NCBI GenBank assembly: GCA_024278615.1
Contig: JAJRSS010000006.1
Location: 1-43,061, forward strand
Length of the DNA: 43,061 nt
From: Alphaproteobacteria bacterium
Lineage (GTDB): Bacteria > Pseudomonadota > Alphaproteobacteria > Rhodospirillales > 2-02-FULL-58-16
Direction: 5' to 3'
Shown piece after piece: positions 23,805-42,886 of this stretch (the first letter of the stretch is position 1; the number at the start of each line of letters is the position of its first letter). The translations under genes were made by a program, and so were the position numbers. The notes below the pieces were generated by a model. The model was not told the origin of the DNA, searched no databases, and worked only from the letters and a program-made list of their open reading frames with translations.

Positions 23805-24467
23805 ATGGATATGCCAAGCAGTTTTAGTCTTTTTCGCCGTACCAAAGCTCTTGAAACCGAGATCGATCAGTTTCTCGACAAGATTTCCCAGGCATCGCTG
23901 TTGTTCAAGCGAGCTATCCAGATTTATACGGAAAGCGGTTGCACCGAAGAATTCGACGAAAAACTGCATCAGGTCAATCAACTGGAAAGTACCGCCGACC
24001 ACCTTCGCCGGGCCATCGAAACCCAGCTTTACACACAGACCCTGATCCCGGAATCCCGCGGCGACGTGCTTGGCCTTCTAGAAAACCTGGACTCGGTGAT
24101 CAACGACCTGGAAGGCGCGCTATGGGGGTTCTCCATTGAAATCCCGGTAATCCCGGAAGATTACCGGGCCGATTATGTGGCCTTGACCGATATGGTGGTG
24201 CAGGCGGTGGAATCCCTGGTACTGGCATCCCGCGCTTTCTTCCGCAATATCGAAGCCGTTCCCGACCACAACCACAAGGTCATGTTCTATGAAAAGGAAG
24301 CCGACCGGGTCAGCACCAAGCTGAAAAAAGCGATTTTTCGCTCGGACCTTCCGCTGAGCCAAAAAGCCCAGCTCCGCAATTTCGTCGAGCACATCGACAA
24401 CGTGGCCGACAAGTCTGAGGACGTAGCGGATCGCCTGGCGATCTATACCATCAAGCGGACGGTCTGA
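23805..24467 (+). CDS. DUF47/PhoU-like accessory protein of PiT transporter
   Basis: FSLFRRTKALETEIDQFLDKISQASLLFKRAI; coupled to PiT permease downstream. Confidence 0.88.
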   Translation: MDMPSSFSLFRRTKALETEIDQFLDKISQASLLFKRAIQIYTESGCTEEFDEKLHQVNQLESTADHLRRAIETQLYTQTLIPESRGDVLGLLENLDSVINDLEGALWGFSIEIPVIPEDYRADYVALTDMVVQAVESLVLASRAFFRNIEAVPDHNHKVMFYEKEADRVSTKLKKAIFRSDLPLSQKAQLRNFVEHIDNVADKSEDVADRLAIYTIKRTV

Positions 24468-24474
24468 CTCTTCC

Positions 24475-25959
24475 ATGGAAATCACTATCCTTTTCTTCCT
24501 GACCAGCGGCTTGTTCCTGGGGTGGGCACTGGGCGCCAACGACGCCGCCAATGTATTCGGTACCGCCGTCGGCACCCGAATGGTGCAATTTACCACCGCC
24601 GCCATGATCTGCGGCGTCTTCGTCATCCTGGGCGCGGTGTTCAGCGGTGCCGGCACCACCGAGACCCTGGGAAAACTGGGTTCGGTGAACGCCCTTGGGG
24701 GGTCGTTCATGGCTGCCTTTTCCGCCGCCCTGGCGGTCTATATGATGACCAAGCTGGGCCTGCCCGTTTCCACTACCCAGTCCATTGTCGGTAGCATTAT
24801 CGGCTGGAACCTGTTCAGCCAGACGCAGACCGACACCACGTCGCTTTTGAAAATTTTGGCGACCTGGGTTGTTTCCCCGATATTGGCCGCCATCATCGCC
24901 ATCGTGTTATTTAAGCTGGTGGCGGTTTTCCTTCGCCACGCCAAAATCCACCTGCTTCGCACCGACGCTTATACCCGGGCTGGCTTGTTGCTTGCCGGAG
25001 CCTTTGGTTCATACAGCCTGGGCGCCAATAACATCGCCAACGTGGTCGGCGTGTTCATTCCCGCTTCCCCCTTCACGGATTTCCACTTCACAGATCTGCT
25101 GACTTTTACCTCGACACAACAACTCATGCTTCTGGGTGGCTTCGCCATTGCGGTTGGCGTATTTACCTATTCCAAGCGGGTGATGCTGACGGTCGGCGGC
25201 GGCTTGCTGTCCCTGTCGCCCATCGCCGCATGGGTGGTGGTGACTTCCCATTCCATCGTGCTCTTCCTGTTCGCTTCAAAGGGACTGGAGCATTTCCTGG
25301 CTACCAACGGTTTGCCCACCATTCCCCTGGTCCCGGTGTCCAGTTCCCAGGCCGTGGTCGGCGCGATCATCGGCATCGGCATCCTGAAAGGCGGGCGCGG
25401 CATCCGATGGCGGGTACTGGGCGGCATCGGCGCCGGCTGGGTGATGACACCCCTGCTGGCCGGCCTGATTTGTTTTGTCGGCCTGTTTTTCCTTCAAAAC
25501 GTTTTCGACCAGAAGGTTTACCGCCCAGTACCCTATGAATTGTCCGAACCGGCGATAGAACGGATGGAAAAACTTGGAGTGGCGGTCGGTAACTTCCGGG
25601 ACCTTCATTCCAGGCGGTTCGAAACGGCGATTGCTATCCGTGACGCACTGAAAGAACGGACAGGGTTGAGCGACGAGGACCTGGTCACCATCCTGGATGC
25701 CGCCGAATTGGATTTGATGGTCGTAGACGCGACAGGCATCGATTCCTTAGAGAAAAGCCGGTTGACCGATGGGCAGGTCCAGGCGCTCCGGTCCCTGGCC
25801 GGTGAACGCTATCCCCATCGCTGGATGCTTGCCGATGCCTTGGCCCGGATCAGCGAAGAATGGCGGCCCAGGGAGAAAAACAAGATCAACAAGATCTACA
25901 ATGTAGACTTGAAAGCCCGGCTGGCGGTCGTCTTTCGGACATTCCGCGCCGATCAATAG
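24475..25959 (+). CDS. Inorganic phosphate transporter, PiT family
   Basis: GANDAANVFGTAVGTR and second repeat GANNIANVVGVF signatures; multi-TM. Confidence 0.93.
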   Translation: MEITILFFLTSGLFLGWALGANDAANVFGTAVGTRMVQFTTAAMICGVFVILGAVFSGAGTTETLGKLGSVNALGGSFMAAFSAALAVYMMTKLGLPVSTTQSIVGSIIGWNLFSQTQTDTTSLLKILATWVVSPILAAIIAIVLFKLVAVFLRHAKIHLLRTDAYTRAGLLLAGAFGSYSLGANNIANVVGVFIPASPFTDFHFTDLLTFTSTQQLMLLGGFAIAVGVFTYSKRVMLTVGGGLLSLSPIAAWVVVTSHSIVLFLFASKGLEHFLATNGLPTIPLVPVSSSQAVVGAIIGIGILKGGRGIRWRVLGGIGAGWVMTPLLAGLICFVGLFFLQNVFDQKVYRPVPYELSEPAIERMEKLGVAVGNFRDLHSRRFETAIAIRDALKERTGLSDEDLVTILDAAELDLMVVDATGIDSLEKSRLTDGQVQALRSLAGERYPHRWMLADALARISEEWRPREKNKINKIYNVDLKARLAVVFRTFRADQ

Positions 25960-26005: not shown

Positions 26006-26776
26006 TCAGGTCTTTTCGTCGCCAGCAATCATGATTTCCGCCGTCAGCCGGTCAAGCTCTTCCTTCAAGGCTTCTTTTGGGTGGCGGTCGGTAATCAGGA
26101 AGGAAACCTGGTCCAGGTGGGCTACCCGAACCGGCGCCAGGCGGTTGAATTTCGTATGATCGGCAAGAAGCACCTTGGTCCGGCCCTGGGCCAGCATGCG
26201 ACTTCGAAGCTCTGCCGCTTCGCGGGAAAAGTCCAGTAACTGGGCCCCGCTGGTCAAGGCGCTGACCCCGATAAAGACAAAATCGGCGAAGTAGTTAGCC
26301 AGCATTTCGGTGGCGTCCCGGCCCAGGGTAGCCCCATCGGCGCCCTGCATTTCCCCGCCCAGAAGCAACACTCGGTTTTCGTTGCGCCCGGCCAGGCGGC
26401 CAGCCACCTGGATGTCATTGGTATAGACGGTGAGCCGGCGCCTTTGGGCCAGCGCACGGGCGAGGCAAATGGTTGTGGTGCCGGAATCGATAATTACCGA
26501 AGCCCCATCGGGGACCAGGGTAGCCGCAAGGCGGCCGATGGCGTTTTTGCCCTTTGTGTTGACCGACATACGATCAGCAAAGGCGGGCTCTTCCGTTTCC
26601 ACGGAAAGAGCGCCGCCATGGGTCTTTTTTAGAAGGTTTTCCGCTGCCAGGCGGGAAATGTCGCGGCGGATGGTTTCCCGGGATACGTGGAACCGCCGAT
26701 AGAGCTCGGCGACCGAAACCGACCCTTTTTCCCCCAGGATTTGGACGATAAGTCCCCGCCGTTCCTCGGCCAACAT
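26006..26776 (-). CDS. DeoR/GlpR-family transcriptional regulator
   Basis: N-terminal HTH ERRGLIVQILGEKGSVSVAELYRRFHVSRETIRRDISRLAAENLLKKTHGGAL; sugar-phosphate sensor domain DSGTTTICLARAL. Confidence 0.93.
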   Translation of the reverse strand: MLAEERRGLIVQILGEKGSVSVAELYRRFHVSRETIRRDISRLAAENLLKKTHGGALSVETEEPAFADRMSVNTKGKNAIGRLAATLVPDGASVIIDSGTTTICLARALAQRRRLTVYTNDIQVAGRLAGRNENRVLLLGGEMQGADGATLGRDATEMLANYFADFVFIGVSALTSGAQLLDFSREAAELRSRMLAQGRTKVLLADHTKFNRLAPVRVAHLDQVSFLITDRHPKEALKEELDRLTAEIMIAGDEKT

Positions 26777-26954: not shown

Positions 26955-27120
26955 GAAAAGTAGTTTTTTGAGGTAAATCATTGAGTTATGGGGCTTGAAC
27001 GATCACCCGAAGGCCCGGTTGATGCTCAACCGAGCCCGAGACAAGAGGGTGTAAGAGGGAGAAATCAGGTGGATCAGCCACCTGAAGAACCGTTTACCAG
27101 GGAGATGGAGATTCTTTCCA

Positions 27121-28163
27121 TGCACATCAAATCAATGCCGAAATCGATTACGCGGGTCCTTGCGGCTACTGCCGTCGGTGTATTCACTGCGGGGATCAGC
27201 GCCCCGTTGTTCGCCGAGACGCTGACCGTTTATACAGCCGTTGAAGCCGAAGACCTGAAGAAGTATGCCGCCCGGTTCAACGAGGACCATCCGGATATCA
27301 AGATCAAATGGGTCCGGGATTCCACTGGTATTGTCACTGCCAAGTTACTGGCCGAAAAGAACAACCCCAAGGCCGACGTGGTCTGGGGCCTCGCCGCGAC
27401 CAGCCTGATGCTGTTGGGCGAAGAGAACATGCTACAGCCCTATGCACCCAAGGGCCTTGACAAGCTGGACCCCAAGTTCAGGGATTCGAAAAATCCGCCG
27501 TCATGGACGGGCATGGACGCCTGGGTGGCGTCCATCTGCTACAACACGGTCGAAGGCAAGAAGAATGGCGTCCCCAAGCCTACTTCGTGGAAAGACCTGA
27601 CAAAACCCGCCTATAAGGGCCATGTGATCATGCCTAACCCCAATTCCTCTGGCACCGGTTTCCTGGATGTTTCCAGCTGGTTGCAGTTGTTTGGCGAGGA
27701 AGGCGGTTGGAAGTTCATGGATGCCCTTCATGAAAATATTGCCCGCTATACCCACTCGGGCTCAAAGCCCTGCAAGCTGGCGGCAGCCGGTGAAATTACC
27801 GTTGGGGTATCCTTCGCTTTCCGTGGCGCCAAGTCCAAAGCCAAGGGCGCTCCGCTCGATATCGTCATTCCTACCGAGGGCATCGGCTGGGATATGGAAG
27901 CGACCTCCATCATCAAGGGCACCAAGAAGCTGAAAGCGGCTCAAACCCTGGTCGATTGGTCGATCTCTGAAAAGGCCAACAAGATGTATAATGAGGGCTA
28001 TGCCGTTATCGGTATCCCCAGCTTGGCCAAACCAGTTAAGTACTTCCCCAAGGAAGTCGCCACCAAGATGATCGACAACGACTTCGCCTGGGCGGCCAAG
28101 AACCGCAAGCGCATTCTTTCCGAGTGGCAGAAGCGTTTCGATTCCAAGTCCGATCCCAAGTAG
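27121..28163 (+). CDS. Periplasmic substrate-binding protein of putative 2-aminoethylphosphonate ABC transporter (start at MHIKSMPKS; ORF opens at 26988)
   Basis: Signal peptide; Fe3+/AEP-type SBP fold (LTVYTAVEAEDLKKYAARFNEDHPDIKIKWVRDSTGIVTAKLLAEKNNPKADVVWG); followed by matching ATPase and fused permease. Confidence 0.85.
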
Positions 28164-28273: not shown

Positions 28274-29404
28274 ATGAACAAGGGGATTGCGGTGGTAGAA
28301 ATGACCGCCGGCGCAGGCATCGATGGGCGAAAGCCCTATTTGCGCATCAATAACGTAACGAAGAAATTTGGCGATTTCGTTGCCCTGAACAGAGTATCCC
28401 TGGATGTCTACGAGGGTGAATTTGTCTGCTTCCTGGGGCCGTCCGGATGTGGCAAGACCACCCTGCTTCGGGCCATTGCCGGACTGGACATTCAGACATC
28501 GGGCACCATTGAACAGGCGGGAAAGGATATTTCCGACCTGCCCGCATCCGAGCGGGATTTTGGTATTGTTTTTCAGTCCTATGCGTTGTTTCCCAATCTG
28601 ACCGTCAACCGCAACGTCGCCTACGGCCTGGAAAATCGCAAGGTGTCCAAAGCGGACATTACCGCCCGGGTGGAAGAACTCCTCAATCTCGTGGGCATGC
28701 CGGAACAGGGACAAAAATATCCGGCTCAACTTTCCGGCGGACAGCAGCAACGTGTCGCCCTGGCACGGGCCCTGGCTACCTCGCCTGGCCTCTTGCTGCT
28801 GGATGAACCGCTGAGTGCCCTGGATGCCAAGGTACGCGTCCGCCTTCGCCACGAGGTCAAGCACCTTCAGCACAAGCTGGATGTCACCACCATCATGGTG
28901 ACGCACGATCAGGAGGAAGCCCTAACCATGGCCGACCGCATCGTGGTCATGAACCAGGGTGTGATCGAACAGGTAGGAACACCCCTGGAAATCTACCGCA
29001 GGCCAGGCAGCCCGTTCGTGGCAGACTTCGTCGGCACCATGAACTTCCTGGCGGCAACGGCCATAGGTAACGGAAAGGTGCGCATGGGAAACATCGAACT
29101 GTCCGCAGGGAACGACGGCGCCAACATTGGGGAAGGTACTCCGGTGACGCTTTGTGTCCGGCCCGAAGATGTGATGACCCGAAACGTGGAAGCAGACACC
29201 CCCAACGCGTTTGAAGTGACCGTTCAGGACATGGAGTTCCTGGGTTCGTTTTACCGCGCCGATATTTCACCCCGGGATGACGAGAAGACCGTTTTTCTGG
29301 CGGACCTGTCGATCAATCTGGTCCGTGACAAGAACATCATCAAGGGTATGAACCTGCCCGTCGCCTTTCCGGAAAGCCGAATCCGGGTTTTTTCACAGAC
29401 ATAG
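28274..29404 (+). CDS. ABC transporter ATP-binding protein (putative AEP importer, PhnT2-like)
   Basis: LGPSGCGKTTLLRAIAGL, LSGGQQQRVALARALATSPGLLLLDEPLSALDAKVR, TOBE-type C-terminus. Confidence 0.9.
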   Translation: MNKGIAVVEMTAGAGIDGRKPYLRINNVTKKFGDFVALNRVSLDVYEGEFVCFLGPSGCGKTTLLRAIAGLDIQTSGTIEQAGKDISDLPASERDFGIVFQSYALFPNLTVNRNVAYGLENRKVSKADITARVEELLNLVGMPEQGQKYPAQLSGGQQQRVALARALATSPGLLLLDEPLSALDAKVRVRLRHEVKHLQHKLDVTTIMVTHDQEEALTMADRIVVMNQGVIEQVGTPLEIYRRPGSPFVADFVGTMNFLAATAIGNGKVRMGNIELSAGNDGANIGEGTPVTLCVRPEDVMTRNVEADTPNAFEVTVQDMEFLGSFYRADISPRDDEKTVFLADLSINLVRDKNIIKGMNLPVAFPESRIRVFSQT

Positions 29405-29418
29405 AATAGAGGCTGACC

Positions 29419-31119
29419 GTGACGACCGCCGCCGCCATCCCGTTGCCGGAAATAAAACCGAAGCTGAGCGGCGACGACCGCATCATGCGCGGATTTATCC
29501 TGCTAGTCGGTGTGTGGATGGTGATTGCAGTCCTGTTACCCCTTTACTTCATGCTGTCGAAAAGCTTCGAAGACAACGACGGTAATTTCATAGGTCTCCT
29601 TAACTACGCCGAATACTTTTCCACTCCGGCGTTGTTCTATTCTATTGAAAACAGTTTTTTCATTGCCGTCGTTTCCACGGTAATCACGATCACCCTGGCA
29701 TTCATCTATGCCTATGCCTTGACCCGAAGCCTGATGCCTTTCAGGGGTGCCTTCAAGGTCATCGCCATGATCCCGTTGCTGGCACCTTCCCTGTTGCCGG
29801 CCATTTCTTTTGTTTACTTCTTCGGCAACCAGGGGGTGATCAAGGGTGTGCTAATGGGGGAAACCATTTATGGCCCCATCGGTATCATCATGGGGGAGGT
29901 GTTCTACACTCTGCCCCATGCCTTGATGATCCTGGTCACGGCGCTGAGTACGGCCGACGGCCGCCTTTACGAAGCGGCTATCAGCCTTCGCGCCGGCAAA
30001 ATCAAAACCTTTTTTACCGTCACCCTGCCCGGCATAAAATACGGGTTGATCAGCGCCATTTTTGTCGTCTTTACCCTGGTCATCACCGATTTCGGCATCC
30101 CCAAGGTGATTGGTGGCCAATTCAACGTGCTGGCGACAGACATCTATAAACAGGTCATCGGTCAACAGAATTTCGAGATGGGAGCGGTGGTCAGCGTCGT
30201 CCTGCTGATCCCGGCCATCGCCGCCTTCTTGGTCGACCGAATCGTCCAGCGCAAGCAGGTGGCTTTGCTCACTGCCCGCGCCGTGCCCCTGGAACCCAAG
30301 AAAAGCCGAGGGTTCGATACGGCCATGGGAATTTATTGTGCGACCATCGCCTTTGTGATCCTGGCCATAATAGGCATGGCAATCTATGCTTCCCTCGTCA
30401 CCTTCTGGCCCTACAACCTGACACTGGGCTTCACCAATTATGACTTCGATGTCATGGATGGCGGCGGCTGGGAATCCTTCGGTAATTCACTCAGGATGGC
30501 CGCCTATACAGCGGTGTTCGGCACGGCGATCATCTTTACCGGTGCCTACATGGTCGAAAAGACCAAGGGTTTCGCCCTAGCCCGGGGGGCAATTCAGTTC
30601 CTGTGTATCCTGCCCATGGCAGTTCCGGGCATGGTGCTGGGCTTGGCCTACATCTTTTTCTTCAATCACCCGGATAATCCGCTGGGGATGATTTATGGGA
30701 CCATGGTTATCCTGGTAGTGGTCACCATCAGCCACTTCTATACGGTCAGCCACCTGACGGCGCTGACGGCGCTGAAGCAGATGGACCCGGAATTCGAAGC
30801 GGTGTCCGCGTCCCTCAAGGTTCCCTTTTTCCGCACTTTCCTTAGAGTTACGGTTCCCGTCTGCCTGCCGGCCATCCTTGATATTTCCATCTATCTGTTC
30901 GTCAACGCCATGACCACGGTTTCGGCAGTGATTTTCCTGTATTCATCGGATACCAACCTGGCCTCGGTGGCGGCCCTGAACATGGACGACGCGGGCGACG
31001 TAGCACCCGCCGCGGCCATGTCCGTGATGATCGTGTTGGCTTCGGCGACGGTACGAATCCTCCATGCAATCCTTACCCGGGGCCTGGCCCGCCGCCTGCA
31101 AGCATGGCGAAAGCGCTGA
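29419..31119 (+). CDS. ABC transporter permease with two fused membrane domains (putative AEP importer, PhnU2-like)
   Basis: 566 aa, two BPD_transp_1-like halves (EAAISLRAGKIKTFFTVTLPGIKYG and EAVSASLKVPFFRTFLRVTVPV). Confidence 0.9.
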   Translation: MTTAAAIPLPEIKPKLSGDDRIMRGFILLVGVWMVIAVLLPLYFMLSKSFEDNDGNFIGLLNYAEYFSTPALFYSIENSFFIAVVSTVITITLAFIYAYALTRSLMPFRGAFKVIAMIPLLAPSLLPAISFVYFFGNQGVIKGVLMGETIYGPIGIIMGEVFYTLPHALMILVTALSTADGRLYEAAISLRAGKIKTFFTVTLPGIKYGLISAIFVVFTLVITDFGIPKVIGGQFNVLATDIYKQVIGQQNFEMGAVVSVVLLIPAIAAFLVDRIVQRKQVALLTARAVPLEPKKSRGFDTAMGIYCATIAFVILAIIGMAIYASLVTFWPYNLTLGFTNYDFDVMDGGGWESFGNSLRMAAYTAVFGTAIIFTGAYMVEKTKGFALARGAIQFLCILPMAVPGMVLGLAYIFFFNHPDNPLGMIYGTMVILVVVTISHFYTVSHLTALTALKQMDPEFEAVSASLKVPFFRTFLRVTVPVCLPAILDISIYLFVNAMTTVSAVIFLYSSDTNLASVAALNMDDAGDVAPAAAMSVMIVLASATVRILHAILTRGLARRLQAWRKR

Positions 31120-31235: not shown

Positions 31236-32753
31236 ATGATTCCTTCCTTCGCCAAGCTGCTGACCGGCGATCAGGTGGCGCGCATAGCCGGGGCGTCCAT
31301 GGAAATCCTGGCGGACACGGGCCTTCTGGTGCGCAACGAAAAAGCCCGGAAGCTTTTCGCAAAGCATGGGGGCAAGGTTGATTCCCATAACCAGATGGTC
31401 AAGCTGCCCCGGCCGGTGGTAGAGGAGTTCATGGCCGCCGTGCCACCCACCTTCACCTTTCGGGGCCGCGACCCCCGCTTCGACCGCACCCTTCCCGGCG
31501 AAGGCCCCCTGTTCGCCACAGCCAGTTCCGCCCCCAACGTGATCGACCCGGTGAGCGGCGAAGAGCGGCGGGCGACCTCGGAAGATATCGCCCGCATGGC
31601 CCACCTGATCGACGCCCTGCCCGGTTACGACGTATTTTCCGTCGCCACCCTGGCCGATGACGCGCCGCCGGGCATGTACAGCTTGTCGCGTTTTTATCCG
31701 GCGCTGAAAAACTGCCGTAAGCCCATCCGGGCGTCCCTGCTGAGCCCAAAGGAAGCCGATGAAATGGTCCGCCTGCTGGGTATTATCGCCGGCGGCGAAG
31801 AGGCCTTTTGGGAGCGGCCCTTCATTACCTTCGGCTTCTGCGCGGTCATATCGCCGCTGACCATGGATTACGACGCCACCGAGATGCTGATGTATTACGC
31901 CGAAAAGGGCATCCCCAATCACTCCATCACGGTGCCCAACGGGGGCTTGAGTTCACCCTTCACCCTGGCGGCGACCACGGCCCAGGGCAACGCCGAATTC
32001 CTGGCCGCCACGGTTTTGACCCAGATGGCCAAACCAGGGACGGAAGTACTGTATTCCGTGCTGCCGACCATGACCGACATGCGTACCGGCGCCTATGCTG
32101 CCGGAGCCGTGGAAACGGGCATGCTGGACATGGCGGTGGCCCAGATGGCGGCCTATCACAACGTTGCCTGTGGCGGTTACATCGGGCAAACCAATTCCAA
32201 GATCAGCGACGCCCAGGCCGGGTACGAAAAAGCCATGTCTTCGACTATGGGCGTGCTGGCCGGGTTCGATTTCCTTCAGGTGGGCGGCCTTGTGGACACC
32301 CTCATGGCTTTCGATTTCGGCCAAGCGGTGATTGATAACGAAATTGCCATGATGCTCAAGCGGTTGACCCAGGGCATGGAATTCAGCGAGGAAAGCCTGG
32401 CCCTCGACATCATCAAGGAAGTGGGGCCGGCGGGCATGTTCGTCGATCACCCACATACCTTCGAGCGCATGAAAACCGCCACCTACCTGCCCCAAGTGGC
32501 CGACCGCACCCCCCGCCAGACCTGGAAGGAACTGGGTTCCACGGATATCCACGACCGAGGCCTGTGGCGGGCGCGCGAGATCCTGACGGCCAACAACGAC
32601 GCGGTATTTTCGTCCGCTGTGGACGCCCGAATCAGGGCCACCTTCGACGGGCTGGTCGCCGGCGATTCCCTGCCGCCAGAAGGCTGGACAGCCCCCGGAC
32701 TGGCCCCCCGGCGGCGCCAAAGGACCGGCCGGCGGCGTGCCCCTCGCCGCTAA
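31236..32753 (+). CDS. MttB-superfamily (trimethylamine/betaine:corrinoid) methyltransferase, non-pyrrolysine type
   Basis: Full-length 505 aa without internal TAG; MttB-like TNSKISDAQAGYEKAMSSTMGVLAGFDFLQVGGLVDTLMAFDF, DRTPRQTWKELGSTDIHDRGLWRAREIL; Arg-rich C-terminus. Confidence 0.9.
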   Translation: MIPSFAKLLTGDQVARIAGASMEILADTGLLVRNEKARKLFAKHGGKVDSHNQMVKLPRPVVEEFMAAVPPTFTFRGRDPRFDRTLPGEGPLFATASSAPNVIDPVSGEERRATSEDIARMAHLIDALPGYDVFSVATLADDAPPGMYSLSRFYPALKNCRKPIRASLLSPKEADEMVRLLGIIAGGEEAFWERPFITFGFCAVISPLTMDYDATEMLMYYAEKGIPNHSITVPNGGLSSPFTLAATTAQGNAEFLAATVLTQMAKPGTEVLYSVLPTMTDMRTGAYAAGAVETGMLDMAVAQMAAYHNVACGGYIGQTNSKISDAQAGYEKAMSSTMGVLAGFDFLQVGGLVDTLMAFDFGQAVIDNEIAMMLKRLTQGMEFSEESLALDIIKEVGPAGMFVDHPHTFERMKTATYLPQVADRTPRQTWKELGSTDIHDRGLWRAREILTANNDAVFSSAVDARIRATFDGLVAGDSLPPEGWTAPGLAPRRRQRTGRRRAPRR

Positions 32754-32894
32754 CCCTTTACACAATAACGACTAATTTTCTGCTCTTCCCTGTGGGGTTT
32801 TTTTTCGAGAGCAGTGTTGATTTTTGTGGACTTATGACCGTTTATGCCCGATATTGCGCGCCGACGAAAGCCACTTGCCCCAAGGTCGCCAGCC

Positions 32895-34040
32895 ATGAGC
32901 AACACCCGAAAAGACCCCTCGCCGAAGGATCCTTGGCTGCTGACCCCCGGCCCGCTGACCACCACGGCGGCGACCAAGGAAGCCATGCTCCATGACTGGG
33001 GCTCGCGGGATACCGCTTTCATCGAGACCAACGCCCGTGTCCTTAACCGCCTGTTGGCCATCGCCGGAGCCAGCGAGACCCACGTCTGCGTGCCCATGCA
33101 AGGCAGCGGCACTTTCGCCGTGGAAGCCACCCTGGGGACGTTGATCCCGCGGGACGGCAAGGCGCTGATCCTGATCAACGGCGCCTACGGCAAGCGCATG
33201 GTCCGCATTCTCGACTATATGGGCCGCGCCCACGTCATTCTGGAAACGCCGGAGGACACGCCCCCCGACCCGGCGGAACTTGACCGCATGCTGGCCGCCG
33301 ATACGGCCATCACCCATGTGGCCGCCGTCCATTGCGAAACCACGTCGGGAATCCTCAACCCGATCGCCGAAATCGCCCGCATCGCCGCCAAGCACGGGCG
33401 CAGCCTGTTGATCGACGCCATGAGCGCCTTCGGCGCTATTGCCCTGGACGCCCGGGAAATTCCCTTCGACGCCCTGATGGCGTCTTCCAACAAGTGCCTG
33501 GAGGGCGTGCCCGGCATGGGCTACGCCATCATCCGCAAGTCGGTGCTGGAAACCTGCGAGGGCAACGCCCATTCCCTGAGCCTGGACTTGTATGACCAGT
33601 GGGTGGCTATGGAAAAAACCAGCCAATGGCGCTTCACCCCGCCGATCCACGTGATCGTCGCCTTCGATGCGGCACTGGAACAGTTCGAAGCCGAAGGCGG
33701 CGTCGCCGGGCGCAACGCCCGCTACGCCAACAATTGCCGGATCCTGATGGAAGGCATGCGGGCGCTGGGTTTCCGGGCCCTGCTCTCCGGCAACCTGCAG
33801 GCGCCGATCATCGTCACCTTCCACCTGCCCGCCGATCCCCGTTTCGTTTTTGAGATCTTCTACAATTCCCTCAGGGACCGGGGCTATGTCATCTATCCGG
33901 GCAAGCTGACCGTGGCGGACAGTTTCCGCATCGGCTGTATCGGCAACCTGGGCGAAAACGAAATGCGTGGCGCGCTAAGCGCCATTAGCGAAGTGATCAC
34001 CGAAATGGGTGTGAAAACCGGCGCGCCGGCCGCCGCCTGA
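32895..34040 (+). CDS. phnW: 2-aminoethylphosphonate--pyruvate transaminase-like (start at MSNTRKDPSPKD)
   Basis: LLTPGPLTTTAATKEAMLHDWGSRD, HCETTSGILNPI, DAMSAFGAIALD, SSNKCLEGVPGMGYAIIRK (PLP lysine). Confidence 0.92.
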   Translation: MSNTRKDPSPKDPWLLTPGPLTTTAATKEAMLHDWGSRDTAFIETNARVLNRLLAIAGASETHVCVPMQGSGTFAVEATLGTLIPRDGKALILINGAYGKRMVRILDYMGRAHVILETPEDTPPDPAELDRMLAADTAITHVAAVHCETTSGILNPIAEIARIAAKHGRSLLIDAMSAFGAIALDAREIPFDALMASSNKCLEGVPGMGYAIIRKSVLETCEGNAHSLSLDLYDQWVAMEKTSQWRFTPPIHVIVAFDAALEQFEAEGGVAGRNARYANNCRILMEGMRALGFRALLSGNLQAPIIVTFHLPADPRFVFEIFYNSLRDRGYVIYPGKLTVADSFRIGCIGNLGENEMRGALSAISEVITEMGVKTGAPAAA

Positions 34041-34074: not shown

Positions 34075-34935
34075 ATGGAGGCCGAGATGGGCTTGAGAAC
34101 CGATTACGTCTATTCACGCAGCTATACGGGCAAGGTCAAGGCGGTGATCCTGGATTGGAGCGGCACCACGGCGGACGCCTACGTCATCGCCCCGGCGGTG
34201 GTCTTTGTCGAAGTGTTCAAGACCCAGGGCGTGGACATATCCATGCTGGAAGCCCGTGGCCCCATGGGCCTCAGGAAGGACCTGCACATCAAGGCCCTGA
34301 CCGAGGACCCGGATATCCGCGACCGGTGGAAAGGGGTTCATGGCAAGAACCCGGACCAGGGCGACGTTGACCGCATGTTCGCCGATTTCGTCCCCAAGCA
34401 GTTGGACTGCTTGAAGAAATACACCACCCTGCTGCCCGGCGTCGCCGAGACCACCCAGAAGATTCAAAAAGACGGCGTCAAGATCGGCAGCACCACGGGC
34501 TTCGTCCGTTCCATGGTCGATATCCTGGAAGCCGATGCCAAGAAGCAGGGCTACACGCCGGATGCGTCCGTCGCCGGCGACGATGTTGTCCATGGCGCCC
34601 GGCCCAAGCCGTTCATGGTCTACAAGAACCTGGACCTGCTGGACGTGCATCCCATCCAGTCGGTAATCAAGGTGGACGACACCATTTCCGGCGTTGGCGA
34701 GGCTCTGGAAGCCGGCTGCTGGGGTGTCGGCATAGTCAAGTACAGCAACTACATGAACATCAATACCCTGGAAGAAGCGGATGCGTTGCCCCAGGCGGAA
34801 ATCGAGCGGCGCCAAGCCTTCACCCGGGAAACCCTACAAAAGGCCGGTGCCCACTACGTGATCGACGAGTTCCCCCAACTGCTGAAAGTGATCAAGGACA
34901 TCAACCGGCGGCTGGCCTCGGGTGAAAAGCCCTAG
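34075..34935 (+). CDS. phnX: Phosphonoacetaldehyde hydrolase-like HAD protein
   Basis: VILDWSGTTADAYVIAPAVVFVEVFKTQGVDISMLEARGPMGLRKDLHIKALTE; GSTTGFVRSMVDI; Lys in MGLRK aligns with the PhnX Schiff-base Lys by eye. Confidence 0.88.
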   Translation: MEAEMGLRTDYVYSRSYTGKVKAVILDWSGTTADAYVIAPAVVFVEVFKTQGVDISMLEARGPMGLRKDLHIKALTEDPDIRDRWKGVHGKNPDQGDVDRMFADFVPKQLDCLKKYTTLLPGVAETTQKIQKDGVKIGSTTGFVRSMVDILEADAKKQGYTPDASVAGDDVVHGARPKPFMVYKNLDLLDVHPIQSVIKVDDTISGVGEALEAGCWGVGIVKYSNYMNINTLEEADALPQAEIERRQAFTRETLQKAGAHYVIDEFPQLLKVIKDINRRLASGEKP

Positions 34936-35543: not shown

Positions 35544-36155
35544 ATGGAAACCTTCACGCCACAGGAAATCACCATCGCCGTGGAGCCCTTGCTGCGCATC
35601 CAGGGCTACCGCGATTTGGACAAGGTACGCGCGCCGATCAAAAAGGTGGCCGCCAAAATGGCTGCCCGAGCCCAGCAACTGGCGGAGCCCATTGCCGTTT
35701 ACCGTAAGGTGCCGATCAAATCCGTAGATGGTAATTCGGTGACCCTGGGCGCCGGCACCGTATTTCACAGTGAGGAATTCCCCAGGTTTCTGACCGGGTG
35801 CGGCGAAGTGGTGGTCTTTGTACTGACCATCGGCACCGCTTTCGATGCGGAAGTCCAGGCACTCATCGAAGAAGACAAGATCCTTGAGTTGCTGTTTTTT
35901 GAAAACGCCGGCTGGATCGGAGTGGAAAGCGCCACCAAGACTTTTTCCCGCCACCTTCAGGCCATGGCCCGCCAACAGGGCTGCCAACTGACCCGCCGCC
36001 TGGCCCCTGGGTACCAGAACTGGCGCCTGGAGGAACAAGCGAACTTTTTCAGCCTGTTTGAAACCGGCGCCCTTCCCGTCCGCCTTCTCGAAAGTTGCGC
36101 CATGCTTCCCAAAATGTCCCGTTCCGGGCTTTACGGATTGAAACCATCATTATAG
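35544..36155 (+). CDS. Vitamin B12-dependent methionine synthase activation-domain-like protein
   Basis: C-terminal RLAPGYQNWRLEEQANFFSLFE resembles the MetH reactivation-domain signature; first gene of a corrinoid methyltransferase operon. Confidence 0.75.
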   Translation: METFTPQEITIAVEPLLRIQGYRDLDKVRAPIKKVAAKMAARAQQLAEPIAVYRKVPIKSVDGNSVTLGAGTVFHSEEFPRFLTGCGEVVVFVLTIGTAFDAEVQALIEEDKILELLFFENAGWIGVESATKTFSRHLQAMARQQGCQLTRRLAPGYQNWRLEEQANFFSLFETGALPVRLLESCAMLPKMSRSGLYGLKPSL

Positions 36156-36214
36156 CAAAACCTGACATCCAACGGCCCGGCGGTATCCGGGTACAACTTC
36201 ACTAGGGGGCGACC

Positions 36215-37189
36215 ATGACCATTGGCTCACACGGCCTGATTATCATCGGCGAGAACTTCAATACTACCCGCAAGATCCGCGGCACCAGTCCGCGCGTAGT
36301 GCGCGAGGGGGACAAGCAGGGCCTGTCCTATACGGACCTGGACGGCACGGTGCGAATCCTGGACATCCCCGACCCCCTGCCCGAGGATCCGGGCGAACTG
36401 AAGACCACCATGATCCCCCATATCGGCTTGGCCCTGCGCAACAAGGACATGGACTACATCCGCTGGGCGATCATGGCCCAGGTGGAAGCCGGCGCCCATA
36501 TCATCGATATCTGCGTCGATGAAATGTCTCACTACCCGGAGGAACGGGCCGACTGGATGCGCTGGACCGTCGAAGCCGTGCAGAAAATGACCGACGTGGC
36601 GCTGGCCATCGATTCCTCGGACCCGCAAACGGTAAAGGCGGGGCTGGAGGTCTATGACACCTCGAAAAGCCGGCCGGCGATCAATTCCGTCAACCTTGAA
36701 GAAAACCGCCTGCCGCTGATTCCCATGGCTAAGGAAATGAATGCCTACCTGTTCGCCAACGCCGGAGGGTCATCGGGTATGCCGCAAAATGCCCAAGACC
36801 GGGTGGACAACCTTGAGCAACTGATGAAGATGATGGATGACGCCGATGTCCCCATGGAAGACCGCTTCCTCGACCCCCTGGTTTTTCCCATCGGCGCCGG
36901 TCCCGACTTCGGCTTGCACTACCTGGACGCGGTAAAGACGCTGCGCCAACGGTATCCGGAGGTGCATATCTTCGGCGGCCATAGCAATACTTCCTTCGGC
37001 CTGCCGGGCCGCAAGGGACTCAATAACGCGTTCATCGTCCTTTCCATGTTGGCCGGGTGCGATACCCTGATGATCGACCCGATCATGAACCCGCCGGCGG
37101 AACTGATCGAATTTCGCATGGCCGCCGACGCGCAGACCGGCAAGGACGAATTCGCCATGAAGTATCTCAAGTACTGGCGGGCGAAATAG
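36215..37189 (+). CDS. Methyltetrahydrofolate:corrinoid methyltransferase-like (pterin-binding/DHPS fold)
   Basis: IIGENFNTTRK, ALAIDSSDPQTVKAGLEVY, PAINSVNLEENR, GGHSNTSFGLPGRKGLNNAFIVLSMLAGCDTLMIDP. Confidence 0.9.
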   Translation: MTIGSHGLIIIGENFNTTRKIRGTSPRVVREGDKQGLSYTDLDGTVRILDIPDPLPEDPGELKTTMIPHIGLALRNKDMDYIRWAIMAQVEAGAHIIDICVDEMSHYPEERADWMRWTVEAVQKMTDVALAIDSSDPQTVKAGLEVYDTSKSRPAINSVNLEENRLPLIPMAKEMNAYLFANAGGSSGMPQNAQDRVDNLEQLMKMMDDADVPMEDRFLDPLVFPIGAGPDFGLHYLDAVKTLRQRYPEVHIFGGHSNTSFGLPGRKGLNNAFIVLSMLAGCDTLMIDPIMNPPAELIEFRMAADAQTGKDEFAMKYLKYWRAK

Positions 37190-37232
37190 CCGTGGTTCTC
37201 CGAATTGAAACCGCAATAAGTGGGAGGAAAAT

Positions 37233-38402
37233 GTGAAGGAACTGTCACACCGGGAAAGGTTCATCCGCGCCCTGCGCCATGAACCCATTGACCGTCTGCC
37301 AAGGTTTTTCCGCTTCAAGCGTGAAGCCAAGGAGAAAGTCGCCCGCATCTTCGGCATCACAGACGCGGAAACGGGCCTGGGTCACCAGCCCGACCTGGAA
37401 CTGCGCATGGGCAACGATGTCGTGCTTTATCAGATTGGCATTAACGCGGAGTTCTCCCACCGGGAAATCGCTATCGGCGACACCTGGCACAGCCCGTTTA
37501 ACGTCGGCTACGGCAAAAGCGGTCTGCAAGGCCGCAACGAGGAAGAACACAAGGAATTCATGAAGACCCAGGAATACTGGGGCCCGGCCAAGGTAGTACC
37601 GGAGAACTTCCCCAGTTCCCACCCCATCACCTCCATGGAAGACCTGAAAAACTACAAGTGGCCCGACCCCGACGATCCCCGTTTGCTCGATCCGATCAAG
37701 AAGATGGTCGACGAATACGGGGATGAATATTTCACCATGGTAGACTTGTCCTCGACCCTGATCGAGGCCGCTTACGCCCACATCGTCGGCACCCAGAAAT
37801 TCTTCCTCATGCTGTTCGACCAACCGGAACTGATCGAAGGGGTTCTGGACGGGCTGACCGAATACTACACGGAACTGGGTAAGAATGCCGTCAAACTGGG
37901 CATCGACATGATCCGTGTCGGAGACGACGTGGGCGCCCAGCAGTCCATGATGCTGTCGCCAGATTCCTGGCGTGAACTGGCCAAGCCCCGGTTCGAATAC
38001 ATGTTCAAGGAATTCAAGAAGGTCAACAAGGACCTGTTCATCAAGCTGCATTCCTGCGGCGACTATTCACCGATCATCCCAGACATCATTGAACTGGGGG
38101 TAGATTTGTCGGGGCTCATGCAGCCCACGGGCGGTAATAAGGATCAGGTGGGGATCAAGAAAAAATACGGCGCCGACCTGGCCCTGGTCGGCGGCTTCGA
38201 CGTGCAGAACCTCCTTCCCCGGGGTTCGGTGGAAGACGTTCGCGCTGGCGTCCTGGAGGTGATCAAGAACCTGGGTGTCGGCGGTGGTTATATTTTTTCG
38301 CCGTCCCACTACATCCTGGCCGACGTCCCCATCCAGAACATCTGGGCGATGTACGAAGCGGTCCAGGATTTCGGGGAGTACGGCAAGTACCCGCTCGACT
38401 GA
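37233..38402 (+). CDS. Uroporphyrinogen decarboxylase-family methyltransferase (MtaA/MtbA/CmuA-like fold)
   Basis: HRERFIRALRHEPIDRLPR N-terminus, KLHSCGDYSPIIPDIIELGVD, GGGYIFSPSHYILADVPIQNIWAMYEAV; operon context. Confidence 0.88.
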   Translation: MKELSHRERFIRALRHEPIDRLPRFFRFKREAKEKVARIFGITDAETGLGHQPDLELRMGNDVVLYQIGINAEFSHREIAIGDTWHSPFNVGYGKSGLQGRNEEEHKEFMKTQEYWGPAKVVPENFPSSHPITSMEDLKNYKWPDPDDPRLLDPIKKMVDEYGDEYFTMVDLSSTLIEAAYAHIVGTQKFFLMLFDQPELIEGVLDGLTEYYTELGKNAVKLGIDMIRVGDDVGAQQSMMLSPDSWRELAKPRFEYMFKEFKKVNKDLFIKLHSCGDYSPIIPDIIELGVDLSGLMQPTGGNKDQVGIKKKYGADLALVGGFDVQNLLPRGSVEDVRAGVLEVIKNLGVGGGYIFSPSHYILADVPIQNIWAMYEAVQDFGEYGKYPLD

Positions 38403-38425
38403 CCCATACCAGCAAGGAGAAAAAA

Positions 38426-39133
38426 ATGTCCGAACCAAGATTGAAAATCCCCGAAGGCTGGGAGGAACGAGCCCCCGAAGGGTGGGAGTGGAGCGAACTG
38501 TGGGAAGCCGTGGAAGTGGGCAAGCACATATTCACCGATGAATTCGTCCGCAAAGCCATCGACACCGGCATCAATCCACGTACGATCCTGGATGACGGCC
38601 TGTTCCCGGGCTTCAACCTGCAAGGGGACCGTTTCACTGAACAGATCATCTTCATCCCCGAAATGCTGATCACTGCCCGGGCCATGAAGGCGGGACTGGC
38701 GTTGATCCGCCCACTGCTCGCCGCCCAAGCGGAAAAACCCATCGGTGTTTTTGTCATGGGCACGGTGCTGGGCGACATGCACGATATCGGCCAATCCATT
38801 GTCGCCATCATGCTGGAAAACGCCGGATTCCAGTTGACCAACCTGGGTACTGACGTACATCCGGATAAGTTCATCGAGACTATCAAGGAATTGAAAGCCG
38901 ATCTGGTCGGCTTTTCCGCCCTTCTTTCGACCACCGTCTATTATCAAAAAGTGACCATTGACGAGATTGAAAAAGCGGGGCTTCGTGACAATGTGAAGAT
39001 TCTCATTGGCGGCGCTCCCACGACCCAGGATTGGGCGGACGAAATTGGCGCCGACGGCTGGGGACGGGATGCGGTACAGGCCGTCAAGCAGGCCAAACGG
39101 CTGATCGCCGAACCTCGGACGGCGTGGGCGTAA
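38426..39133 (+). CDS. Corrinoid (B12-binding) protein of methyltransferase system
   Basis: GTVLGDMHDIGQSIVAIMLENAGFQLTNLGTDV (DxHxxG corrinoid motif), FSALLSTTVYYQK, ILIGGAPTTQDWADEIGADGWGRDA. Confidence 0.94.
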   Translation: MSEPRLKIPEGWEERAPEGWEWSELWEAVEVGKHIFTDEFVRKAIDTGINPRTILDDGLFPGFNLQGDRFTEQIIFIPEMLITARAMKAGLALIRPLLAAQAEKPIGVFVMGTVLGDMHDIGQSIVAIMLENAGFQLTNLGTDVHPDKFIETIKELKADLVGFSALLSTTVYYQKVTIDEIEKAGLRDNVKILIGGAPTTQDWADEIGADGWGRDAVQAVKQAKRLIAEPRTAWA

Positions 39134-39155
39134 GACTTAAAGGTATGGGACCTAT

Positions 39156-41057
39156 ATGAGCGAGAACGTCAGCGTTACTTTCGTCGATGGGGACGGCAAA
39201 CAAACGTCCCGGAAGGTGGGTCGGGGAAGTACCTTCATCGACGCCGCCCAGGACCTGAACCTGGATATTGCCGCCACCTGCGGCGGCCGGGGCCGGTGCC
39301 GAAGCTGCCGGATCAAGGTATTGAAAGGCATCCTGCCGCCGCCCACCATCATGGATCAGGTGCAACTGGGCCCCGATGAAGTGCATGAAGGATTCCGCCT
39401 GTCCTGTCAGACCAAGGTGATCGCCGATTGCACGGTGCTGGTGGCGCCGCCCATCGCCGAAGGCGGTCATAAGATTTTGGGTGCCGGAGTCTCTGAAGAT
39501 ACGCAGTTTCACCTTGATTCCGGCATCGAGAAAAAGCTGGTCGCCGCCAACACGCCGAAGGACGAAAACCACCAGACCTCGGACATGGAGATGATTTTGG
39601 TTGCGCTGGGCGAGCCGGTAAACGGCGACGTCCCCATCGAAGTCCTCCGCAAGGCACCCGACGTGATACGCGCCAAGGGCGGGTCGCTGACCGTCACCAC
39701 CTTCAACCACCGGGTCATCGACGTGGAGCCGGGAGACACCACGCGACACAAGTACGGCATGGCCTTCGACATTGGCACCACCAGTATCGTCGGATCATTG
39801 GTGGACCTGGAAACAGGCGAACAACTGGCCTCCGTCGGCGGCGTCAATCCCCAGGCGGTGTTCGGCGGCGACCTGATGTCGCGCATCGCCTATGCCCAGT
39901 TCAACCCCCAGGCCCTGCGCAAGCTTCGCTCGCGGGTGCTGGCGGAAATCAATGGTTACGTCAAGGAAGTGTGCGGGAACAATAATATCTCCGCCGGCCA
40001 TATCTATAAAATGGTTATCGTCGGTAATACCTGCATGCATCATATCTTCCTGGGTATCGATCCCACCTATGTTGGCTTGGCTCCTTATGCGCCGACCGTG
40101 CGCGAACCGGTGGTGGTGACCGCCAAGGAAGCTTTGCTGAAGGTCAACCCCAACGCACGGATTTGCTTCCTGCCCATTGTCGCCGGGTTCGTCGGCGCCG
40201 ATACGGTGGCCGCCGTCCTCGCCACCCGCATCCACGAAAGCGACCACATACGGGTGATGGTGGATATCGGCACCAACGGCGAAGTGGTCATGGGCACACG
40301 GGGCCGGCTGATGGCCTGCTCGGCGCCCGCCGGCCCGGCCCTGGAGGGGGCGCAAATCCATCACGGCATGCGGGGCGCCGTGGGCGCCATAGAAAAGGTG
40401 GAAATTGACGGCGACGTGACATGTGAAACCATCGGCGGGGCACCGGCGGTGGGTATTTGCGGGTCCGGCCTGGTCGACGCGGCGGCCAAGATGCTCGAGG
40501 CGAAAGTGATCAATCCTTCCGGCTTGCTGCGCCGGGACGGGGGTGAAGGGCTGCCGGAAAAAATCAAGGCCCGCATCGTCGAAGGGGATAACGGCTGGCA
40601 TTTCGTCCTTACCTGGGCCAAGGACACCGGCAAGGACGAGGATATCTACCTCACCCAGCAGGACATCCGCCAGCTTCAACTGGCCAAAGGCGCCATCTAT
40701 TCGGGTATCCTGATGCTGCAAAAGGTGATGGGCGTGGCCGATGGCGACATTGAGGAACTGATGCTGGCCGGCGGCTTCGGCAACTACATCAGTACGGAAA
40801 GCTCGGTCGCCATTCGGCTTCTTCCCAATCTGCCCCTGGAAAAAATAGCCTACGTGGGCAACGCCGCCGCCCTCGGCGCCCAGATGGCCCTTCTGTCGGA
40901 GACAGAGCGGCGGCGCGCCACCACCCTGGCCCGCGAGATCGAGCACGTTGCCCTGGCCACCAATCCGGACTTCCAGGAAATCTTCGTCAAGGCAGTGGTT
41001 TTCGGAGACGAAACGAAAAGGAAAAGCAGAACCCGCACCAGAACCAAGGTGGGTTAG
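39156..41057 (+). CDS. RACo-like reductive activator of corrinoid proteins (2Fe-2S ferredoxin + ASKHA ATPase, DUF4445)
   Basis: ATCGGRGRCRSCRIKV ferredoxin cysteines, AFDIGTTSIVGSLVDLETGEQL, VDIGTNGEVVMGTRGRLMACSAPAGPALEGAQIHHGMRGAVGAIE, LAGGFGNYI. Confidence 0.93.
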   Translation: MSENVSVTFVDGDGKQTSRKVGRGSTFIDAAQDLNLDIAATCGGRGRCRSCRIKVLKGILPPPTIMDQVQLGPDEVHEGFRLSCQTKVIADCTVLVAPPIAEGGHKILGAGVSEDTQFHLDSGIEKKLVAANTPKDENHQTSDMEMILVALGEPVNGDVPIEVLRKAPDVIRAKGGSLTVTTFNHRVIDVEPGDTTRHKYGMAFDIGTTSIVGSLVDLETGEQLASVGGVNPQAVFGGDLMSRIAYAQFNPQALRKLRSRVLAEINGYVKEVCGNNNISAGHIYKMVIVGNTCMHHIFLGIDPTYVGLAPYAPTVREPVVVTAKEALLKVNPNARICFLPIVAGFVGADTVAAVLATRIHESDHIRVMVDIGTNGEVVMGTRGRLMACSAPAGPALEGAQIHHGMRGAVGAIEKVEIDGDVTCETIGGAPAVGICGSGLVDAAAKMLEAKVINPSGLLRRDGGEGLPEKIKARIVEGDNGWHFVLTWAKDTGKDEDIYLTQQDIRQLQLAKGAIYSGILMLQKVMGVADGDIEELMLAGGFGNYISTESSVAIRLLPNLPLEKIAYVGNAAALGAQMALLSETERRRATTLAREIEHVALATNPDFQEIFVKAVVFGDETKRKSRTRTRTKVG

Positions 41058-41233
41058 CAGGATGCTGAAAAACTCCAAAACTGACGTAATCAACTTTCGA
41101 CACCGGCCTAATTTTCTAGGAGGCCGCCGGACGCGGGATGAGGCGACGCTATTGGAACTCCTCTTCTTGAGGGACGAGCGCAAGCGGGAGTCTCGAAGGA
41201 TCGTTGTCGCAAACACCCTTTTTCAGCACCCTG
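41058..41233. mobile_element. MITE-like 176-bp element with near-perfect 15-nt terminal inverted repeats
   Basis: CAGGATGCTGAAAAA (41058-41072) vs reverse complement of TTTTTCAGCACCCTG (41219-41233), one mismatch; abuts the RACo stop codon. Confidence 0.6.
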
Positions 41234-41246
41234 TTGGGGGCTCGGC

Positions 41247-42209
41247 ATGAAAGTGAGCCTGATCTTCGGTTTTTTGGGTTCGGGCAAGACTACCTTGCTG
41301 CGCCACATCCTGGCCGAAAGGGCGGCCAAGCAATCCATGGCGGTAATCGTCAACGAATTCGGCGAAGTGGGTATCGACGGCGCCATCCTCGCCGGTAATA
41401 ACGTCGACATGGTAGAGCTGAATTCCGGCTGCCTGTGCTGCACCCTGAAGGGGCCGCTGCTCAACGCGGTGGAGGAACTTCGCGACCGCGCCGGCGTCGG
41501 GCACACGGTAATCGAAGCCTCGGGCCTGGCCCACCCGGAGGAAATGGAGGAAACCTTCGCCAATCCCAGGTTGGGAACCACGGTGGATGTGGGTCCTTAC
41601 GTCACCGTTGTGGACGGGCACAAGTTTGCCAGGCTGCGCCAGGGCCTGGGGGAATTCTACGTGGACCAAGTGGCCTATGCGGACGTGATCCTGCTCAACA
41701 AGGCCGACCTCATGTCGGCCGACGAAATGGAAATATTGAAAAAGGAAATCAACGCCATCAATCCCGATGCCGAAATTTTGGTGACCGAACGGTGTGATGT
41801 TGATCCCGGGTCGGTCCTGGACAGCAGGAAAGTTGCGGAAAAAGCCGCGCAAGCCGATCCCCATCATTCCCCCGGTCATTCCCCCCTTCACTCTCATGAA
41901 TCCTTTGATTCCCTGGTCCTGAATTCCGGCGCGGATGCGGCGCGGGGCCGGGTCCAGCGGTTCTTCTCGGGCCTTGCGCCCAACGTGTTGAGGGCCAAGG
42001 GGTTCATGACCATCGACGGCCGGCTGTCGCTGGTGCAGTACGCCGCCGGGCAGTTGGAAATCGAGGACAACCCGGCCGCCTCCGCCACCCAGGACCCCGC
42101 CCGCCAGATGGTGTTTATCGGCGAGGGCCTAAACCGGGCGGCCCTGGAATCCGAATTCGCCTTCGCCCGCCGGAAAAACGGAAATGGGACCGAAGAGAAT
42201 GGAACATGA
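41247..42209 (+). CDS. CobW/COG0523-family GTPase (metallochaperone-like)
   Basis: FGFLGSGKTTLLRHIL Walker A, NSGCLCCTLKGPL (CxCC), LLNKADLMS. Confidence 0.92.
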   Translation: MKVSLIFGFLGSGKTTLLRHILAERAAKQSMAVIVNEFGEVGIDGAILAGNNVDMVELNSGCLCCTLKGPLLNAVEELRDRAGVGHTVIEASGLAHPEEMEETFANPRLGTTVDVGPYVTVVDGHKFARLRQGLGEFYVDQVAYADVILLNKADLMSADEMEILKKEINAINPDAEILVTERCDVDPGSVLDSRKVAEKAAQADPHHSPGHSPLHSHESFDSLVLNSGADAARGRVQRFFSGLAPNVLRAKGFMTIDGRLSLVQYAAGQLEIEDNPAASATQDPARQMVFIGEGLNRAALESEFAFARRKNGNGTEENGT

Positions 42210-42886
42210 CCAAGCCTAACCTGGCCGCGGTGAAGGAACTCAATCCCCCTTCCCTGTCGGAAAAGGCCTATCAGCTTCTGTTGCGCAAGATCACTCGGCT
42301 GGAACTGGCGCCGGGGGCGGTGCTGGCGGAAAGGGCGCTGATGAACGAACTGAATATCGGGCGTACACCGATCCGCGAGGCGTTGCAGCGGCTGGCCAGC
42401 GAAGGCCTGGTTTCCCACCTGCCCAACCGCGGCATGTTCGTCACCGAAATCGGCGCCACCAGCGTCCAGCAAATCTATGAATTCCGCGCCATGATCGAAG
42501 GCTTCACCGCCCGCCTGGCCGCCAGCCGCGCCACCGAGGAAGAAATCGCCGAACTGGCGTCGCTCCACCAGCAGTTGGCGGGAGCGACGAAAAAGAACGA
42601 CATCGACTTGTACGTCGACTTGGATTTCCACTTCCACGTCCTGCTCGCCCAGGCGTCAAAGAACGCCTACCTGGAAGAGGTAGTGCCGCGGATTTTTTAT
42701 CTTCACCTCAGGCTGTGGTTTTTTATCTCCAGCCGGACGGGAAACTGGCGCTCCATCGCCGACGCCCACGACGGAATGACCGATGGCGTCGTCAAAGCCC
42801 TGAAAAGCCGCGACCCCGACGAAGCGGAAAGGGCCATGCAGTCCTATATCTCGCTCCGACACACCGACATCAAGGACGTGCTGTAG
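42206..42886 (+). CDS. GntR-family (FCD domain) transcriptional regulator
   Basis: wHTH LAERALMNELNIGRTPIREALQRLASEGLVSHLPNRGMFVTEI; FCD C-terminus; ATGA overlap with CobW gene. Confidence 0.92.
   Translation: MTKPNLAAVKELNPPSLSEKAYQLLLRKITRLELAPGAVLAERALMNELNIGRTPIREALQRLASEGLVSHLPNRGMFVTEIGATSVQQIYEFRAMIEGFTARLAASRATEEEIAELASLHQQLAGATKKNDIDLYVDLDFHFHVLLAQASKNAYLEEVVPRIFYLHLRLWFFISSRTGNWRSIADAHDGMTDGVVKALKSRDPDEAERAMQSYISLRHTDIKDVL

Follow-up and report, generated by a model that had tools for sequence, protein, structure and literature searches.

The mttB gene in the AEP operon

What is the role of a homolog of the methyltransferase MttB in the middle of an operon for the uptake and degradation of AEP? 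The gene lies in the window analyzed here, that is, the whole stretch of 43,061 nucleotides from a bacterium of the Rhodospirillales (Alphaproteobacteria), where six genes follow each other on the plus strand in the order phnS2, phnT2, phnU2, mttB, phnW, and phnX. The first three encode an AEP ABC transporter, consisting of the substrate-binding protein (positions 26988-28163; TIGR03261, 532 bits against a cutoff of 393), the ATP-binding protein (28274-29404; TIGR03265, 527 against 458), and the permease (29419-31119; TIGR03262, 827 against 593). The last two encode the AEP:pyruvate transaminase PhnW (32844-34040; NF010006, 554 against 296; TIGR02326, 497 against 401) and the phosphonoacetaldehyde hydrolase PhnX (34075-34935; TIGR01422, 292 against 220). 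Since the transporter, PhnW, and PhnX all exceed the curated cutoffs, the locus is a PhnWX-type AEP degradation cluster, and the first-pass annotation correctly placed mttB (31236-32753, plus strand) between the AEP transporter permease and phnW. We predict that the mttB product is a corrinoid-dependent N-methyltransferase for trimethyl-AEP.

The gap between phnU2 and mttB is 116 bp, and that between mttB and phnW is 90 to 141 bp, depending on the start of phnW, which is more likely at 32895 than at 32844. The latter gap contains a short G/C hairpin followed by T8 (32780-32820), which was not flagged in a terminator scan and is a possible attenuator; because of it, co-transcription of mttB with phnWX is only putative. 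The hairpin is enclosed by the 7-bp inverted repeat CTGCTCT/AGAGCAG. The phnS2 open reading frame has an extra N-terminal stretch ahead of a likely signal peptide, and its true start is probably internal.

Divergently transcribed from phnS2 is a DeoR-family regulator gene (26006-26776, minus strand; profile match) with a 62% homolog in the mttB-phn cluster of locus L028. Beyond it lies a pair of genes assigned by family matches to DUF47/PhoU_div and the PiT phosphate permease (23805-25959, plus strand). The same pair is found near relatives of mttB in loci L028 and L013, and PiT alone in L066. The operon contains no PbfA gene, and none of the cluster genes with a family assignment (19286-42886) encodes a choline kinase.

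The mttB product belongs to a separate clade

The mttB gene encodes 505 amino acids without an internal stop. The protein matches the MTTB family (PF06253, E-value 4e-89) over the full length of the domain, and its residues 2-468 align with nearly the whole of MtgB (PDB 9yce/2qne) and of the pyrrolysine-containing MttB (Pyl-MttB) 7xcl. The predicted structure (mean pLDDT 84.3, pTM 0.85) has MtgB 9yce/2qne and MttB 7xcl as its best PDB matches, and with a TM-score of 0.83-0.88 against MtgB 9yce the fold is intact; both the full-length domain and the fold thus place the protein in the MttB superfamily.

The first-pass annotation assigned the gene to the non-Pyl MttB group from its 505 uninterrupted codons, and the assignment holds on further grounds. 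The score against the Pyl-MttB model TIGR02369 is 391 bits, below the cutoff of 525. There is no in-frame TAG at the position of Pyl334 of 7xcl; the aligned codon 318 (32187-32189, plus strand) is CAA, encoding Gln, which makes the protein non-Pyl by alignment and not merely by the lack of a TAG. Gln318 does not appear to be a relic of a pyrrolysine codon either, given the CAA codon and the presence of Leu at this position in all other clade members except locus L061, which has Val.

The 31 sampled members of the clade are 49-59% identical to the window protein, whereas all other MttB proteins in the genomes bearing it, including those with TAG codons, are at most 36% identical, and the other MttBs of the same genome about 30% or less. 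In a 72-row tree with MtgB, the Sinorhizobium meliloti protein 4yyc, Pyl-MttB proteins, and the genome's own paralogs as references, a branch with SH-aLRT support of 100 divides 28 clade members from all other rows, and MtgB, 4yyc, and the Pyl proteins lie across a stem of roughly one change per column. A second tree of the 31 members and five outgroup rows gave the same clade with UFB/SH-aLRT support of 100/100. Of the references suggested at the outset for a tree check, these trees cover MtgB; they put the window protein outside the clades of MtgB, Pyl-MttB, and 4yyc, and it does not group with the glycine betaine methyltransferase MtgB.

Relatives were found in nine of 297 sampled genomes of the same order of Alphaproteobacteria and, more rarely, in two of 385 of the class sample, the window's own genome included in both cases, while the phylum sample (one of 399) yielded this genome alone. 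They occur in 12 of 194 genomes from the order of a Desulfobacterales genome, and also in Chloroflexota and Firmicutes. No close copy was detected at E<1e-100 among 59 genomes of the same order, and no match at E<1e-80 among the PLSDB plasmids.

Phosphonate genes recur near clade members

Phosphonate genes (phnS2/T2/U2, phnW, or PbfA) occur near seven of the 29 other clade loci, or six if L015 is set aside. In L028, the order is DUF47-PiT, DeoR, LysR, mttB, and phnS2-T2-U2. In L034, phnS2-T2-U2 is divergent from mttB, which is accompanied by a gene for a DMGDH-like protein. Locus L035 contains phnW, LysR, PbfA (665 bits, cutoff 525), a gene similar to HD oxygenases, a DMGDH-like gene, mttB, and phnS2-T2-U2. 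Locus L011 has a PbfA gene (662 bits, cutoff 525) 2.3 kb from mttB. In L013, from Desulfobacterales, mttB has as neighbors PiT, DUF47, and a pair of PbfA genes scoring 723 and 657 bits (cutoff 525), and in L063 it is near PbfA homologs 84% and 77% identical to those of L013. In L015, an HD protein is encoded near mttB; its best model is TmpB, with a score under the cutoff. At the remaining 22 of the 29 loci no phosphonate gene was detected within about 10 kb, in some cases through contig ends.

The phosphonate-linked loci span α-proteobacterial, γ-proteobacterial, and Desulfobacterota genomes, and on the 31-member tree they show a scattered pattern, with cases in each of the two halves as well as on the branch of the window protein itself. 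No phosphonate gene was found near any of 31 paralogous MttB loci from three genomes (G000, G677, and G680). One-sided Fisher tests give p = 0.004 for seven of 29 against none of 31, and p = 0.009 without L015, values that serve only as a guide because the loci are interdependent, the contigs are often short, the controls were drawn from three genomes, and the PbfA and HD probes were derived from the clade loci themselves. This recurrence in other genomes supports the early suggestion that mttB occupies the position of the first catabolic enzyme for whatever is imported. The product is probably a corrinoid methyltransferase for choline-like phosphonate or phosphate substrates, which in the window most likely converts N-trimethyl-AEP (M3AEP) to dimethyl-AEP, to be passed on to AEP catabolism once it has been demethylated further by enzymes encoded elsewhere.

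The recurrent neighbor PbfA (L011, L013, L035, and L063), a user of hydroxy-AEP, could instead point to a substrate other than M3AEP, either one of the secondary or tertiary amines M1AEP and M2AEP or a hydroxylated compound, for example (R)-1-hydroxy-M3AEP, and the requirement of PhnW for a primary amine (PMC10590968) is in line with demethylation of such compounds. We regard this as very unlikely for the window gene, since quaternary amines are the substrates of those non-Pyl MttBs that have been characterized (PMC12155760, PMC8604678) and the window operon has no PbfA. As a separate observation, the two PbfA genes near mttB in the Desulfobacterota genomes are divergent (L013:11494-14660 and L063:2450-6997). 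The Desulfobacterales carriers of mttB and PbfA are presumed from taxonomy to be anaerobes; therefore use of hydroxy-AEP may occur in anaerobes.

No TmpB match for the known oxygenase route

M3AEP is described as frequent in nature, and the one breakdown route named for it in the literature consulted is that of TmpA/TmpB, two iron oxygenases (PMC10590968), which yield glycine betaine and phosphate. Accordingly, mttB could encode a methyltransferase for glycine betaine or another carboxylate betaine, acting downstream of TmpA/TmpB. The TmpB-like HD proteins near mttB in L015 and L035, both below the cutoff, a TmpB above the cutoff elsewhere in genome G252, and a resemblance of the mttB-DMGDH pairs to betaine breakdown would fit this role. 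However, TmpB (NF049941) had no match at an E-value of 1e-5 in the window's own genome (G000), an assembly about 96% complete in 329 contigs, and none in G270, G677, G1210, and G1232, which disfavors conversion of M3AEP to glycine betaine in this organism. The PbfA linkage in Desulfobacterales also argues against an oxygenase route, if these hosts are anaerobes as presumed, with oxygenases unavailable to them. Further, the window protein lies outside the MtgB clade and lacks the Arg of MtgB at position 313, and betaine is not a product of PhnWX. A betaine substrate is thus quite unlikely, and M3AEP itself remains the more probable one.

Clade members linked to choline-type kinases

Two Firmicute clade members (L144 and L145, from genomes G1232 and G1233) share their clusters with eutBC and with genes for a choline kinase (PF01633), a HAD hydrolase, a kinase of the APH type, and an EamA transporter, as well as an mttB split by a stop. 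This arrangement suggests a route from choline to ethanolamine via phosphorylated intermediates. L069 and L070, from the order of the Desulfobacterales genome, have DMGDH-like genes along with a kinase of the APH type or a fusion of APH and aminotransferase. The fusion at L069 (15375-18458), near mttB and two DMGDH-like genes, is of the kinase-peptidase-aminotransferase type (PRK06148) and may act on ethanolamine phosphate.

In Eubacterium limosum, choline is phosphorylated by MthK and the phosphocholine is then demethylated by MthB, an MttB protein; co-localized homologs of mthB and mthK were reported in Clostridia and δ-proteobacteria (PMC12155760). Since Firmicute and some Desulfobacterota members adjoin choline-type kinases, the clade is probably not restricted to phosphonates, and a part of it probably acts on phosphocholine. 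The phosphonate substrate implied by the first-pass annotation thus gains from the recurrent phosphonate linkage, but the reading has to be widened for the clade as a whole, which probably includes phosphocholine enzymes. One pocket could plausibly serve both phosphocholine and M3AEP, as the two differ by one oxygen.

The window gene might itself encode a phosphocholine:corrinoid methyltransferase of the MthB type, captured by the AEP operon for its promoter or for phosphocholine demethylation in phosphate scavenging. Its clade is the same as that of the Firmicute genes beside choline kinase, HAD, and eutBC, and the arginines described below are common to all members, so that they give no means of telling phosphate and phosphonate substrates apart. 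On the other hand, the window cluster has no choline kinase, the neighbors of mttB (PhnS2T2U2, PhnW, and PhnX) are AEP-specific, and the linkage with phosphonate genes is repeated in other genomes. We consider this reading unlikely, though it is the most probable of the alternatives. For the clade, we lean towards a specialization for choline-like quaternary amines with a phosphorus-acid end, from phosphocholine to phosphonocholine, with the window member initiating the use of N-trimethyl-AEP by a corrinoid-dependent reaction that needs no oxygen and would join AEP catabolism to one-carbon metabolism.

Conserved arginines and the C-terminal tail

Three residues encoded by codons 152-166 of mttB (31689-31733, plus strand), R152, K158, and R165, do not vary among the 31 clade members; MtgB has Met, Lys, and Met, respectively. 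R152 and R165 are found in about 2% of 44 non-clade sequences, and both positions are Met in 4yyc as well. At position 313 the clade has Gly, whereas MtgB and 4yyc have Arg, as do all of the 15 among the 44 non-clade sequences in which this position is present; D360 corresponds to Ser in MtgB. In the predicted structure, R165 is located in barrel strand β2 and R152 in the preceding helix. R152 and R165 may bind the phosphonate. The first reading of the sequence proposed looking for a cationic pocket suited to a phosphonate; the newly recognized conserved arginines, one of them in β2, would be compatible with an anion pocket.

The Arg-rich C-terminal tail noticed in the same reading (32711-32750, plus strand) is a real feature: of the other proteobacterial members of the clade, 14 have a complete C-terminus, and all 14 retain an RxRRxxRRR-like end. 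Clade members of the Desulfobacterota and Firmicutes have no such tail. It is predicted to be disordered (pLDDT below 50 at residues 495-505), and the other MttBs of the same genome have Arg-rich N-termini instead. The tail follows lineage and is a lineage trait rather than a clue to the substrate.

The downstream corrinoid cassette

At 0.6 kb past phnX begins a cassette of seven genes on the plus strand (35544-42886), identified by family matches as MetH-activation-like, pterin methyltransferase, URO-D/MtaA-like, corrinoid protein, RACo, CobW, and GntR. The URO-D/MtaA-like protein occupies the methyltransferase position. The genes for the corrinoid protein (38426-39133) and RACo are 5.7 kb downstream of mttB; across the whole genome, six matches to corrinoid proteins were found.

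Genome G255 has counterparts of all seven genes, identically ordered and with 46-78% identity, on a contig (C112, L128) where they stand without mttB, and the corrinoid proteins of G252, G270, and G088 are only about 40% identical to that of the cassette. This occurrence without mttB weakens the cassette as a dedicated partner; it is an independent conserved unit and a possible partner of mttB, and a shared corrinoid hub, by analogy with that of PMC12478193, would be as likely to serve the enzyme.

The presence of a complete corrinoid system so close to phnX, together with the weak hairpin-T8 after mttB, could also mean that the neighborhood of mttB is incidental, the gene being either a part of the downstream cassette or a chance insertion. 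This is highly improbable: in G255 the cassette is intact on another contig and mttB is with phn genes; in G252 and G270 mttB is with phn genes, and the corrinoid proteins there are only about 40% identical ones, not that of the cassette; and phosphonate genes recur at six or seven other clade loci.

Proposed pathway

In the proposed route, of which the substrate, the corrinoid partner, and the later demethylations are inferred, PhnS2T2U2 would import methylated AEP. The mttB product would then transfer one N-methyl group of M3AEP (2-(trimethylammonio)ethylphosphonate, or phosphonocholine) to the Co(I) of a corrinoid protein, leaving N,N-dimethyl-AEP, and the pterin methyltransferase would hand the methyl group from the corrinoid protein to tetrahydrofolate. 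As PhnW requires a primary amine and does not accept mono-methyl AEP (PMC10590968), two more demethylations are required after mttB, and the window operon contains no gene for them. In most proteobacterial relatives a DMGDH-like FAD-DAO/GcvT protein is encoded directly after mttB. A homolog with 52-54% identity is located on a 4-kb contig (C38) of the window's own genome and is the best candidate for the later steps; this flavoprotein would strip the remaining methyl groups, with acetaldehyde and phosphate as the final products of PhnW and PhnX.

We found in the open-access literature no earlier report tying MttB to AEP catabolism and no description of an enzyme for M3AEP demethylation. If the proposed route is correct, it would let anaerobes and bacteria of oxygen-poor niches use M3AEP, with the methyl groups recovered as one-carbon units and the phosphorus freed. 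The MttB superfamily, most of which lacks known substrates, would gain a phosphonate member, and R152/R165 would offer a testable residue pair for recognition of the phosphorus acid.

Comparison with known systems

The closest parallel is MthB of E. limosum (WP_341455952.1), the phosphocholine:Co(I)-MthC methyltransferase (PMC12155760). It also belongs to the non-Pyl MttB superfamily, and its substrate, like the one predicted for the window gene, combines a phosphorus acid with a choline head group. The mthB gene adjoins a choline kinase, as do the Firmicute clade members L144 and L145, a likeness by gene context alone, whereas the window mttB has the AEP transporter, PhnW, and PhnX as neighbors and no mthK-type kinase. 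MtgB, the glycine betaine methyltransferase, shares the fold and the lack of pyrrolysine at about 30% identity but falls in a separate clade and differs at the four positions discussed above (R152/R165 versus Met/Met, G313 versus Arg, and D360 versus Ser). The trimethylamine methyltransferase Pyl-MttB (7xcl) has the same fold at about 28% identity, with Gln318 (CAA) of the window protein in place of its pyrrolysine.

Among phosphonate systems, TmpA/TmpB share the proposed substrate, trimethyl-AEP, but convert it by two iron oxygenases. The flavoenzymes PbfB, PbfC, and PbfD likewise handle N-methylated AEP in PhnWX-type clusters, but their substrates are mono-methyl AEP and, in the case of PbfD1, dimethyl AEP rather than trimethyl-AEP, and they are oxidative and release methylamines (PMC10590968). 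Finally, the MtgBCD system of marine bacteria is similar in its aerobic-type hosts, in the presence of several PF06253 genes, and in the corrinoid/tetrahydrofolate hub, but it is assigned to glycine betaine and phosphonate is not mentioned; the extra PF06253 genes of these bacteria were suggested to serve other methylated compounds (PMC12478193).
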